DNA from: Singulisphaera sp. GP187
GTDB lineage: Bacteria; Planctomycetota; GCA-002687715
Assembly: GCA_945907755.1 (NCBI GenBank)
Contig: CAMDTN010000027.1
Span: 1-32,819 of the forward strand
Length of the DNA stretch: 32,819 bases
Direction: 5' to 3'
Position numbers and translations under genes: made by a program. Positions 4,254-11,225 of this stretch are shown here, piece after piece (within the stretch, counting starts at the first letter, position 1; every line of letters starts with the position of its first letter). The notes under the pieces were generated by a model. The model worked only from the letters and a program-made list of their open reading frames with translations, made no database searches and was not told where the DNA came from.

Positions 4254-5024
4254 TCAGGCCCCTAGGCGGCGCGCCTCTGCAAGGAAGTGCGCCAAACCCG
4301 CAGCCTCGTCGTCGCCGAAACGGTAGCGAATTCTGCGCGTCAGATAAACCAAGCAGCGCGCTGGATTCAACGCCAAGCGCCGCGCCGCTTCCAGCGCGTG
4401 GCCTGCGATGTTGGCTGCGCCCCGCGCCGCCGCTGCGTCCAACCGAGCAGCAATCTGCGCTAACTCGGGATTCGTGCGCCGCACCGCCCAAACGGCGTAA
4501 ACAAAGGGCAAACCAGTCGCCGCAAACCACTCGGCTCCCAAGTCCAAGCACGGTGTGCCCTGATCCAACGCCAACAGCGCCTTGTCGCCAATCACCAGCG
4601 CCGCGTCGTCGCCGCATGAGAGCGCCTCTTCCCCAACCCTGCGCTCCGTTGGCACAGGACGCGCACCGTGGCGCTCTTGCAGCACCCACCGCGCAAGAAT
4701 CTGGCTGCTGCGCGATTCAGGGTCTAATGAAAGGCGCCGCACGCGCTGCGGCGCAGTGGATAAAAGCAACAGCACGGAATCCACCGCTCCAGCGGATGCA
4801 ATGCAGGCCGTGCCTACTGCCACCAATTCCTGGTTGTGCAGCAGCGCCGCTGCGGGCACCAAACCGGCGTCATAGCGGCCTTCGAGCAGCCCAACAGCCA
4901 CGCGCGCAGGTGGCTCCAAGTGCAGCGACACGCCTGGCGCGTCAGCCAAACCGTCCAACAGCGGCAGCGCATTCACATAGGAGACCGCGCCCAGCCGCAG
5001 CAGACTTAGCTCCCTGCAATCCAA
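4254..5024 (-). CDS. mqnA: Chorismate dehydratase MqnA (futalosine menaquinone pathway)
   Basis: A 256-residue protein of the MqnA/MqnD periplasmic-binding-like fold. MqnA converts chorismate to 3-[(1-carboxyvinyl)oxy]benzoate, the first step of the futalosine route to menaquinone. The N-terminal motif LGAVSYVNALPL, the DAGLVPAAAL segment and the later LVIGDKALL and LDLGAEWFAATGLPFVYAVW segments fit the family. The start is uncertain: the longest frame begins at a TTG (5024) with no obvious ribosome site and overlaps the upstream gene's stop by 19 bases. An AGGGAG within the first codons could serve a slightly later non-ATG start. No other mqn gene is in the window, so the rest of the pathway must lie elsewhere. 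Confidence 0.85.
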   Translation of the reverse strand: MDCRELSLLRLGAVSYVNALPLLDGLADAPGVSLHLEPPARVAVGLLEGRYDAGLVPAAALLHNQELVAVGTACIASAGAVDSVLLLLSTAPQRVRRLSLDPESRSSQILARWVLQERHGARPVPTERRVGEEALSCGDDAALVIGDKALLALDQGTPCLDLGAEWFAATGLPFVYAVWAVRRTNPELAQIAARLDAAAARGAANIAGHALEAARRLALNPARCLVYLTRRIRYRFGDDEAAGLAHFLAEARRLGA

Positions 5025-7111
5025 GCGGAGACGATCTTGCCGAGTGGCTTGTAGTCGGCTTCCATGCGCGCCTCGAAGCCACCGGAGAAATCCTTCTTCA
5101 TTTCCAGTGTCTTCGGCAGGAAAATGAGATCCGCACTCTCGCGGCTATCTTCGTTGTCGGGCTTCTTCATCTTGCCCGTGGCCACCACCGGACCATCCTT
5201 GGCTTTGCGGACAGTGATTGTGGGTAGCGGCGGGCCCATCATGGGCGATTCATACTGCTCGCCAAACGCGCCATAGATTTTTACTTCCTTGGCGGGAATC
5301 AGAATCGATTCCGTTGCGCCGTCTTTTTTCACAGTGGCCTTGAACACAAAGGTGAATCCTTCGTCGCCGGCCCCGCCCATTTTCCATGCAGTCAGCGCGC
5401 TCGGCTGCACATTCAACACCCCCGAGCGACCGCGCGTGATCCAAATGGTGTTTGCCTTGTCGCCGCGGCCTTCGATGATGTAGCCGTGTTGGAATGTGAG
5501 CGCCCCAGGCACCACCCACATGGCCTTGTCTTTGGCCTGCATCAGATCGAAGTAGTAAGTGCTGTCTTCACCGGACCCTGAACAGTTGAGGAACGCCGGA
5601 GTCAGCCCGCCTTTCCACTCGAGGCGCACAGCACCGAGCGGACCGTCGTAAGGCTTCGTGCGCAGCGTTCGACCATTGGCTTCGATCTTCAACTCGAAGA
5701 AATGCCCATCCAAATCGACGTAGCGCGACAGCGCTTGCACCTTCAGTGTCTTGCCCTTGCCTGTGACCAAGCAGTCGATGCCAAAATCGTTGAAGGCACC
5801 ATTGCCATTAACGTCGTGCACAACGACGTCGGCGCCGCGCAGTTTTCCTTTGCTCACCGTGGCGCCGCGGAACTTGAGCCCGATGGAATCTGCAGTGCCG
5901 CCAAAATTGAAGCCCATGAAATTGAACTGCGTGGGCACCGACATCATGGTCTGCCAGATCTTGCCCTTGCTGCCGTCGAGATACACCGCCTCTTTGAACT
6001 CTTGCAGTTCTGGCTTCGGCGCCAACTTGATGCGCAGGCCTTCGCCCTGGGTTTTCTGCTTGCCCTCGGGGTACAAGAACACTTTGCCGCCGTCGTTCAT
6101 GACTTCGCCGCTGCCTGGCAAGAAGGTGGCCTTCTGCGCGGCACCCTTGGCCAACGGAATGGCCGGCCACCAATACCAGTGCCCATTCACCCATCCGAAG
6201 GGGGTGAGATAGGGCGTGTCGCCGACCTTGTCGAGTTTGAACTCGGCGGAGTCTTCCCACTCAATGGGCACGGTGTGCACATTCGGAAGCGGGCCCATCG
6301 GCATGTCTGGACTTCCAGCGGCTCTGGGGGCGTTGCCAGCAGCAGCCGCTTCCGCCGCTGCTTTCTCCAGAGCCTCTTTGTATTTCGCTTTGCTCTCCAC
6401 CATGGGCACTGCGGTGTCCACCAACTCTGGGCGCAGTTTCGCAGCAGTGGCTGCTGCAGTGATGCCACTGTCCAAGTTGTTCTTCGCCATCTCCTGCTGC
6501 GTGTGCCCCTTGGCACCGATCTCCGCCGCACGCTTGTAGTGGTAGATGACCTCGTACCAGTTGGGCACAAGTTCGTGGATCATGGCCATGTAGATGTGGC
6601 CTTGAGCGCCCCAGAAATTGTCGCTGGCAGCTTCCGCCTTGGTCACAACTATCTCGAAATGTGGCAACAATTCGTCGAGCTTCTCGATCTTGCGGAGCTT
6701 GCGCGCCTGATCAAAGGCTGGCCCGCCGCGGCCAACGGCATCCCACATTTCCAGCTTGGCCTGCTTCTGCTCCGTTGTCAGTCCGCTCAGCCACGCGTAA
6801 CGCTTGGCAAGGTAATCGCTCTTCTGACCCACCAGTCGATAGATGGTGGCAAGCCCTTCCAACGTCTTTAGCGCTGCTTCGGCAGCAGCTTTCGACGCAT
6901 CGCCCTCGTCGATGCTGAGACGGCACCACTCGTGCTCGTACAGATAGAAGCCGTCCCTTGATGCGTCATAGTTGTTCGACACCAACTCGCGCTGCTTCAC
7001 GAAGTCATCCGCTTTGACGGCGGCAGCGAAGTCTTGAATGAAGCGTTGTGGCCCTTGGGCCACAAGGGAGGCCAGCGCGAAGAACACGAGTGCGATGGTG
7101 CGCAAAAGCAT
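5006..7111 (-). CDS. Large secreted protein of unknown function with TPR-like N-terminal half
   Basis: I do not recognise this 701-residue protein. The ATG at 7111 is chosen because it follows a GAAGGG site and opens directly into a signal peptide (MLLRTIALVFFALASLVAQG, cleavage near residue 20). The same frame extends 31 codons further upstream but without these signs. Residues about 25-260 are helical and Ala/Lys-rich. They include a segment resembling tetratricopeptide repeats (around IYMAMIHELVPNWYEVIYHY, then KRAAEIGAKG), so this half may be a protein-interaction scaffold. The rest (about 290-700) is rich in Gly, aromatic and polar residues, looks beta-rich and has many DG turns and short repeats of strand-like segments. 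It has no catalytic motif I can name. It is probably periplasmic or cell-surface. It heads a minus-strand operon with mqnA and serS. Confidence 0.7.
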   Translation of the reverse strand: MLLRTIALVFFALASLVAQGPQRFIQDFAAAVKADDFVKQRELVSNNYDASRDGFYLYEHEWCRLSIDEGDASKAAAEAALKTLEGLATIYRLVGQKSDYLAKRYAWLSGLTTEQKQAKLEMWDAVGRGGPAFDQARKLRKIEKLDELLPHFEIVVTKAEAASDNFWGAQGHIYMAMIHELVPNWYEVIYHYKRAAEIGAKGHTQQEMAKNNLDSGITAAATAAKLRPELVDTAVPMVESKAKYKEALEKAAAEAAAAGNAPRAAGSPDMPMGPLPNVHTVPIEWEDSAEFKLDKVGDTPYLTPFGWVNGHWYWWPAIPLAKGAAQKATFLPGSGEVMNDGGKVFLYPEGKQKTQGEGLRIKLAPKPELQEFKEAVYLDGSKGKIWQTMMSVPTQFNFMGFNFGGTADSIGLKFRGATVSKGKLRGADVVVHDVNGNGAFNDFGIDCLVTGKGKTLKVQALSRYVDLDGHFFELKIEANGRTLRTKPYDGPLGAVRLEWKGGLTPAFLNCSGSGEDSTYYFDLMQAKDKAMWVVPGALTFQHGYIIEGRGDKANTIWITRGRSGVLNVQPSALTAWKMGGAGDEGFTFVFKATVKKDGATESILIPAKEVKIYGAFGEQYESPMMGPPLPTITVRKAKDGPVVATGKMKKPDNEDSRESADLIFLPKTLEMKKDFSGGFEARMEADYKPLGKIVSAWIAGS

Positions 7112-7237
7112 GAGTGGGACCCTTCTCAGTGACGCGCGCTGCTCTTGGAAACTCGCAGCATCGGGTCGCCAGAAGTCTATACGCAGGGCCTGCGTCCGCG
7201 GCAAGCTCGGGGCTGCGTGTGATCAATGGCCGCTCTG

Positions 7238-8849: not shown

Positions 8850-9695
8850 TCACCCGCGGCGGCTTGCCTGCGATTTGCGCGAGCGCTGCTCTAAGAACGA
8901 ACGCTCAGCGTTCGTCAGTGCGGGCATCCCTTCCTGCGAAATCTTCGCGAGAATCCTGTCCAATTCGCGCTCATCACCAAGTTCTGTTTCCAGCCGACGC
9001 ACGGAATCGCGACGGCGCTGGCGCGCTTTGAAACGCTCGATGCGCGGTTGCAGTACGCGCGGCCAGAGCCATGCAAGGCTGAAGCCGCCGACGCCTCCGA
9101 ACAGATGGGTCCAATGCGCCTTGCCATCGCTGGTGGCGCCTGCCCCGCGTCCGTCGCCCAAGGCATAGGCCAAATCGATCAGCACTAACACCAGGACCAG
9201 CCACTTCATGCGCACGTCAATGACCAGCACGCGCACGACGAGGTTTGGCACCATCACCATGAGGATTGCGAGGACACCCATGATGCTGCCACTGGCGCCC
9301 ACAACCGGGGCGTGCCCGCCGCGTTCAAGGAATGCCCCGAGCGAGCCTGCAACGCCGCACAGCACATACATCCACAGGAAGCGCCGTGCGCCCACCATGC
9401 CTTCCAAGATGCGCCCTGCGAAGAACAGCATCAGGCAGTTCCAGAGCAGATGCCAAATGTCGGCATGCACAAACTGGTAGGTGAACACCTGCCAGAAGTG
9501 GCCTGCTTGAAGGCCCGCCACCGAAACACCCAGTTCTTCCTCGACGGTGCCTGCGGCCACAAAGCCCATGCCCGTCAGCAATACCTTCAGCAAGTGAAGT
9601 CCGACGGTGACGCCAAGGATGAGGAAAAGCCCATCCTGCGGCTGGCGCGGGATGAAACCGGAATCATCGTCGTAGCGGCGGTCGCTCCAAGCCAT
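8850..9695 (-). CDS. Rhomboid-family intramembrane serine protease
   Basis: This 281-residue polytopic membrane protein is a rhomboid, which cleaves membrane proteins within or near the bilayer. At least six hydrophobic segments lie between residues 22 and 212. The oxyanion-site motif HADIWHLLWN (77-86) precedes the catalytic-serine motif GASGS, with Ser135 as probable nucleophile. The partner His197 lies in THLFGGVGG of the last segment, so the enzyme should be active. The soluble C-terminal tail contains ELDRILAKISQEGMPALTNAE, a short conserved region often found after bacterial rhomboid domains. The ATG at 9695 lies 13 bases after the hpt stop, and the site GAGGT overlaps that stop. Its substrate cannot be told from context. 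Confidence 0.93.
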   Translation of the reverse strand: MAWSDRRYDDDSGFIPRQPQDGLFLILGVTVGLHLLKVLLTGMGFVAAGTVEEELGVSVAGLQAGHFWQVFTYQFVHADIWHLLWNCLMLFFAGRILEGMVGARRFLWMYVLCGVAGSLGAFLERGGHAPVVGASGSIMGVLAILMVMVPNLVVRVLVIDVRMKWLVLVLVLIDLAYALGDGRGAGATSDGKAHWTHLFGGVGGFSLAWLWPRVLQPRIERFKARQRRRDSVRRLETELGDERELDRILAKISQEGMPALTNAERSFLEQRSRKSQASRRG

Positions 9696-10364: not shown

Positions 10365-11225
10365 TTGACTCGGATCATCGATGGAAAAGCTCTGGCCCTG
10401 CGCATCGAGGCCGAAGTAGCGCGTGAAGCCGCAGCACTGGACAGCATGGGCGCCGCGCCGGTGCTCGCTTCTGTGCAAGCAGGCCGCACGCCCGCTGCCG
10501 AGATCTACATGCGCCACCAAGCCCGCGCTGCCGAACGCACAGGTATCGCCTACCGCCGCATCGAACTGCCTGCAGAAATCAGCGAGCGCCAATTGTTGCG
10601 CGAGCTCGAGCGCATCGCTCAAGACCCACAAGTGACGGGCTTGCTCCTGCAGACGCCGCTGCCGCCGCATCTATCCGCACGCGCCGTGCGCCGCGCGTTG
10701 GACCCGCTGAAGGATGTCGAAGGCGTACATCCAGCCAACCTTGGTTGGTTGCTATCCGACCGCCCCGGGTTGGTGCCGTGCACCGCCGCAGCCGCACTTG
10801 AGTGCATTCTCAGCACCGGCGTTGACTTGCGCGGCAAAGAAGCCGTGGTGGTGGGCCATTCTGAAACTGTGGGCAAACCCATCGCACTGCTGCTAATGGA
10901 ACGCCTCGCCACCGTCAGCGTTTGCCATCACGCTACGGTAAACCTGCAGGAACATGTGCGCCGCGCTGAAATCTTGGTGGTAGCCGCAGGCCAACCCGGT
11001 TTGGTGCGCGGTGCAGACCTGCGCGAAGGTGCCATCGTGGTGGATGTGGGCATCAACGAAATCGAACGTGATGGCAAGCGTGTGGTTGTGGGCGATGTGG
11101 ATGCCGGTACTGAGAACCGCGCGGCATGGATCACTCCAGTGCCTGGCGGCGTGGGGCCTGTCACCGTCGCCCTGTTGCTGCGCAACACCGTGCGCGCCGC
11201 AGCACGCCAAGTCCAAGCGGGCTAA
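10365..11225 (+). CDS. folD: FolD-type methylenetetrahydrofolate dehydrogenase, catalytic Lys replaced
   Basis: A 286-residue protein of the FolD family, which normally oxidises 5,10-methylene-THF to methenyl-THF and hydrolyses that to 10-formyl-THF. Family motifs are clear: VQAGRTPAAEIYMRH (37-51), LLLQTPLPPHL (93-103), LKDVEGVHPANLG (115-127), VVVGHSETVGKP (161-172) and TPVPGGVGPVTVALLL (257-272). The Tyr at 48 is kept, but the Lys four residues later, needed for the cyclohydrolase step, is Gln52 (codon CAA). The Gln in QTPLP (Gln96) and the Asp in KDVEG (Asp117) are kept. The usual GRS in the nucleotide-binding loop is GHS (164-166). The start is a TTG without a clear ribosome site. The dehydrogenase function is likely; the hydrolase function is doubtful. 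Confidence 0.92.
   Translation: MTRIIDGKALALRIEAEVAREAAALDSMGAAPVLASVQAGRTPAAEIYMRHQARAAERTGIAYRRIELPAEISERQLLRELERIAQDPQVTGLLLQTPLPPHLSARAVRRALDPLKDVEGVHPANLGWLLSDRPGLVPCTAAAALECILSTGVDLRGKEAVVVGHSETVGKPIALLLMERLATVSVCHHATVNLQEHVRRAEILVVAAGQPGLVRGADLREGAIVVDVGINEIERDGKRVVVGDVDAGTENRAAWITPVPGGVGPVTVALLLRNTVRAAARQVQAG

Follow-up and report, generated by a model that had tools for sequence, protein, structure and literature searches.

The window (the whole 32,819-nucleotide stretch of Singulisphaera sp. GP187 DNA analyzed here) carries a folD gene whose product is a homologue of the FolD/MTHFD family, with both family domains and the FolD fold (Table 1). The two Pfam matches pass their cut-offs (PF00763, 105.8 bits against 32.8; PF02882, 191.4 bits against 27), and the AlphaFold2 model, computed from the window protein together with 13 homologues, reaches a pLDDT of 92.7 and a pTM of 0.90. 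Its top Foldseek matches are FolD/MTHFD proteins throughout, with a TM-score of 0.93 to C. jejuni FolD. Structures of bifunctional FolD and of the MTHFD1 DC domain (E. coli 1b0a and 5o22, P. aeruginosa 4a5o, C. jejuni 3p2o, human 1a4i) have the same two domains, superpose on the model with TM-scores of 0.87-0.94 at 35-44% identity in the fold comparison, and have the active-site Tyr and Gln in common with it. None of the curated models passes among the 25 NCBIfam models listed for the protein, all of which carry "bifunctional" in their names; the best score against the bifunctional FolD models is 277.6 bits, where 421 would be needed to pass. Elsewhere in the window we observe a gene for a rhomboid-family protein (8850-9695, minus strand) with a C-terminal DUF6576 and a rhombosortase match below cut-off, and a 732-aa ORF (5006-7204, minus strand) without a match in Pfam and NCBIfam searches.

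Table 1. Position of folD in the window and of the codons for its active-site and nucleotide-binding residues
Feature	Position	Strand	Description
folD	10365..11225	+	286 aa, TTG start; PF00763 and PF02882; AlphaFold2 model with FolD fold
Tyr48-Met-Arg-His-Gln52	10506..10520	+	replaces the family Tyr-x-x-x-Lys
Gln96	10650..10652	+	conserved Gln retained (E. coli Gln98, human Gln100)
Glu119	10719..10721	+	replaces pterin-binding Asp (E. coli Asp121, human Asp125)
Gly164-His165-Ser166	10854..10862	+	nucleotide-binding domain; uncoupled from Lys loss

Active-site residues of the window FolD

The initial annotation had read Gln, encoded by CAA, in place of the lysine of the family motif, and GHS in the nucleotide-binding domain; translation of the gene confirms both, the Gln codon lying at 10518-10520. 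Alignment to E. coli FolD (from MG1655) pairs Gln52 with Lys54, Gln96 with Gln98, and Glu119 with Asp121, and the window protein has KDVEGVHP where the E. coli enzyme has KDVDGFHP. The Asp-to-Glu change, which keeps the carboxylate but places it one carbon further out, was absent from the initial annotation and emerged from this alignment. Two features of bifunctional FolD, the Tyr-x-x-x-Lys motif and the pterin-binding Asp, are thus missing: Lys54/Lys56 and Asp121/Asp125 of the E. coli and human enzymes are Gln52 and Glu119 here, and several other group-specific columns differ as well.

The roles of these residues have been described in bifunctional enzymes. In human MTHFD1, Lys56 acts with Gln100 and may donate a proton during the cyclohydrolase reaction; the pterin head group is bound by Asp125 (PMC3368264, PMC6443876, PMC3338484). 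E. coli FolD K54N retains about 19% of its dehydrogenase activity, with cyclohydrolase activity undetectable (PMC5688156). From this literature, replacement of Lys by Gln is expected to remove the cyclohydrolase activity and to spare much of the dehydrogenase activity. We also considered the hydrophobic cage around the lysine and dropped it, since one cage position is Ser in the bifunctional Leishmania enzyme too (PMC3368264).

The proposal that GHS signals an altered cofactor preference finds no support, as GHS and GRS occur in both FolD types. Peregrinibacteria FolDs (L096, L115) combine GHS with the ordinary Lys/Asp pair, several FolDs of the window's type have GRS, and the NADP+-using enzyme of E. 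coli (PMC6443876) has GAS at this position. GHS is therefore uninformative as a sign of NAD use and independent of the Lys/Gln split. Two positions of the window protein are candidates for deciding between NAD and NADP, His165 and His189, the second of which is Arg191 in E. coli and mostly Ile among FolDs with the Gln/Glu pair.

Spread and phylogeny of the Gln/Glu form

Aligning near relatives at the lysine position had been proposed as a check; the FolDs of two other genomes of the genus, G001 and G002 (79% and 73% identical to the window protein), also have Gln and Glu at the Lys and Asp positions. The alignment of all collected FolDs contains 113 rows with Gln/Glu, 20 with Lys/Asp and 9 with other combinations, or 106 Gln/Glu against 20 Lys/Asp sequences once duplicates are removed, the named loci having been found with peptide patterns from the window protein, which biases the search toward the window's own type. 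The two groups also differ in further columns: 63 (Tyr or Phe), 121 (mostly Val, Met or Ile), and 141 and 143 (mostly Ala). Most Gln/Glu sequences belong to Planctomycetota or Omnitrophota, and some to Aerophobota and TA06.

When the diagnostic columns are left out of the alignment, a quick tree search gathers nearly all Lys/Asp FolDs into a single group with an SH-aLRT support of 98, which takes in E. coli, Listeria, and twelve planctomycetes, as well as the FolD of Fusobacterium (Gln, Asn, Asp). Because the Lys/Asp FolDs fall nearly all into this one group, the Gln/Glu form is for the most part a single old subfamily. The lysine was also lost in a few other places: in Fusobacterium, in Collinsella and Acetoanaerobium (both Ala/Phe), and in G054 (Ile).

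Several divergent sequences were seen along the way. G001 carries a second FolD paralogue (L122:5038-5925) of about 40% identity, in which Ile takes the Lys position and Glu the Asp position and which has GRS; part of a second copy lies at a contig edge (C125) in G002. Very divergent FolD-like proteins in G028, G053, and G087 (L132, L133, L234) form a further Lys-less type, in which the Lys is replaced by Ala or Thr, QxP by YYP or FYP, and the GRS motif by NRSEVVGR. In the FolDs of G031 and G055 (L014, L149), Leu occupies the Lys position, and KDVERIN is found instead of KDVEGVH. Finally, L103, from a record named Candidatus Kuenenia stuttgartiensis, shares its FolD motifs with G009 (2.4 Mb), which belongs to the same order as the window genome, and the record name may be a mislabel.

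FolD type and cyclohydrolase-family genes

In relatives, Lys-less folD genes are commonly found beside genes of the FchA family. At 41 of 46 Omnitrophota loci and at one TA06 locus, the Lys-less folD has a free FchA-family gene no more than 400 bp away, commonly in the order fhs-fchA-folD; among the remaining five Omnitrophota loci, L102 and L113 start at the edge of a contig, and at L084 fhs and fchA are located slightly further upstream. Planctomycetota provide fhs-fchA-folD in G043 and fchA-folD in G027. The folD of Collinsella aerofaciens, annotated as "bifunctional", has Ala for Lys and is placed after a cyclodeaminase/cyclohydrolase gene, and genes of the same family (PF04961) are also present in Fusobacterium vincentii and Acetoanaerobium noterae, both with Lys-less FolDs.

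FolD type was first compared with the presence of PF04961 (the FchA/cyclodeaminase family) across 59 Planctomycetota genomes; FolD could be typed in 52 of these (40 Lys-less, 12 Lys/Asp). The domain is found in 39/40 Lys-less against 6/12 Lys/Asp genomes (7 with a partial match in G023; Fisher p 0.0003). The sole Lys-less exception is G002, where the formiminotransferase-cyclodeaminase (FTCD) gene is cut by the contig end (match to 47,874 of 47,876). Genomes without detected urocanase were compared separately, as histidine degradation gives no reason there to keep a PF04961 domain, and all 9 Lys-less genomes have it as against none of 4 with Lys/Asp (p 0.0014).

A second set, overlapping the first, comprised 147 Planctomycetota genomes at least 85% complete. 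PF04961 was not detected in 26 of them, which divide into 21 with Lys/Asp FolD (sixteen typed by DNA signature and five by sequence), 2 without detected FolD, and 3 with Lys-less FolD, so that 21/24 FolD-bearing genomes without the domain are Lys/Asp. Gaps in the assembly, or a divergent domain that escaped detection, seem to account for the three Lys-less exceptions, which are G002; G135, 91% complete, with PF04961 present in G108 of the same genus; and G087, 86% complete, which has a very divergent FolD and weak PF04961 matches in other members of its family. Fisher p values are 7e-10 for all genomes and 3e-7 for those outside the first set, with related genomes treated as independent and with the Lys/Asp count among domain-bearing genomes taken from the DNA signature, and hence a lower bound. 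A tree-aware comparison of FolD type with PF04961 by independent pairs has almost no power, since the main split in the tree is a single deep one. In a tree of the PF04961 domains themselves (a quick tree with long branches), fused and free forms are not cleanly separated.

The window genome (G000) is a 2.68-Mb draft metagenome assembly of 94 contigs, 97% complete. Its single PF04961 match, at 178.6 bits, is the C-terminal domain of a 562-aa FTCD fusion (G000:C53:7016-8701), whose C-terminal part has the FchA model NF045657 as its best match (134 bits, below the equivalog cut-off of 275). The initial annotation had expected a separate cyclohydrolase, for example FchA, elsewhere in the genome. 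That expectation holds in kind, with the FTCD C-terminal domain as candidate, but not in its particulars: the 97% complete draft yielded one FolD only, no free FchA, and no Fhs, and no Fhs turned up in G001 or G002 of the same genus either. We accordingly discarded a second FolD as the cyclohydrolase of this genome and Fhs as its source of 10-formyl-THF. The presence of PurH and of one formyltransferase-domain protein (probably Fmt) indicates that 10-formyl-THF is needed, and the presence of urocanase indicates that FTCD also has its histidine-degradation job. FTCD fusions are kept without detected urocanase in G031 (80% complete) and G055 (88% complete), both Lys-less, which fits the C-terminal domain acting as cyclohydrolase.

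Proposed function and alternatives

Taken from its sequence and that of its relatives, the window FolD is very probably a dehydrogenase only, as the initial annotation suggested in the part of its inference that did not concern the cofactor; the adjoining fchA and folD genes, the complementary distribution of PF04961, and the K54N phenotype (PMC5688156) all argue for this. The enzyme would oxidize 5,10-methylene-THF to 5,10-methenyl-THF with NAD(P)+ and would have lost the hydrolysis of methenyl-THF. Gln52 and Glu119 may jointly hold the pterin ring for hydride transfer, and without the lysine amine hydrolysis to 10-formyl-THF would go uncatalyzed. A PF04961 protein, in many relatives a free FchA, would take over this step, and we consider the fuller reading, a dehydrogenase-only FolD with some such protein as partner, likely too, if by a little less. 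In the window organism, the FTCD C-terminal domain would most likely hydrolyze methenyl-THF and so supply the formyltransferase and PurH; the identification of this domain as the partner is one we favor with some reserve. Whether FTCD supplies methenyl-THF cyclohydrolase activity throughout the window genus and in many other Planctomycetota, paired with an old dehydrogenase-only Gln/Glu FolD, we regard as evenly balanced.

The strongest competing account agrees that the FolD is a dehydrogenase only, but has methenyl-THF hydrolyzed non-enzymatically in the window organism, with FTCD serving histidine degradation alone. Urocanase is indeed present in the genome, and spontaneous hydrolysis is what the authors of the E. 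coli study invoked for the survival of their viable K54N mutants; that strain nevertheless grows very slowly (PMC5688156), and PF04961 is kept in all nine genomes with Lys-less FolD in which no urocanase was detected, including the FTCD fusions of G031 and G055. We judge this account unlikely. Less probable again is that the Gln/Glu FolD is still bifunctional, with Glu119 and Gln52 forming a different catalytic pair for lysine-free hydrolysis. The strict coupling of the Lys-to-Gln and Asp-to-Glu changes in 106 sequences could mean a rebuilt active site, the catalytic role of the lysine was left unsettled in a computational study of MTHFD2 (PMC9173628), and no dedicated FchA was found in the window genome. 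Retained bifunctionality would, however, leave unexplained both the operons of Lys-less folD with fchA and the near-total predominance of Lys/Asp among genomes without PF04961, and it runs against the loss of cyclohydrolase activity in E. coli FolD K54N (PMC5688156). Even for a draft metagenome assembly in 94 contigs, we consider it a negligible prospect that the Gln codon arose by faulty sequencing or assembly or that the gene is decaying, as the 286-aa frame is intact with a confident predicted fold and the same residues are conserved in two genomes of the genus and in more than 100 relatives, which rules out a sequencing error at codon 52.

Separate FolD/FchA pairs are known in Clostridia (C. 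perfringens, acetogens), and Aluri et al., in work from 2016 cited by PMC7219735, reportedly described a dehydrogenase-only FolD with a separate FchA in C. perfringens. Such a pairing of Lys-less FolD and FchA in one genome is seen here in Acetoanaerobium noterae and in the actinobacterium Collinsella; their FolDs have Ala, Phe, and Asp at the Lys, Gln, and Asp positions, in contrast to Gln, Gln, and Glu in the window's type, a comparison in which the clostridial side is one sequence, that of Acetoanaerobium. In its proposed single activity the window FolD resembles the eukaryotic yeast MTD1 (1edz), an NAD-dependent, dehydrogenase-only enzyme that is very distant in sequence (34.5 bits). The presumed partner belongs to the FchA/FTCD C-terminal family, PF04961, and in the window genome it is fused to a formiminotransferase. 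We found no paper on the Gln/Glu subfamily among the open-licence papers searched. Judged by its residues, the Gln/Glu FolD is a distinct, widespread variant beside the known clostridial pairs. Because the lysine is absent and the genomes almost always carry a protein of the cyclohydrolase family, the label "bifunctional" is probably wrong for the Lys-less FolD group.

If this is true, the usual rule by which a folD gene stands for both reactions does not hold in much of Planctomycetota and Omnitrophota, groups that are mostly uncultured and whose metabolic models would need FchA or FTCD for a closed folate cycle. The Gln and Glu pair would offer a simple two-residue marker for re-annotation. 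Since carolacton does not bind E. coli FolD K54N (PMC5688156), Gln/Glu FolDs are predicted to be insensitive to it. The Gln/Glu FolDs would then represent a natural experiment on the separation of FolD's two reactions.
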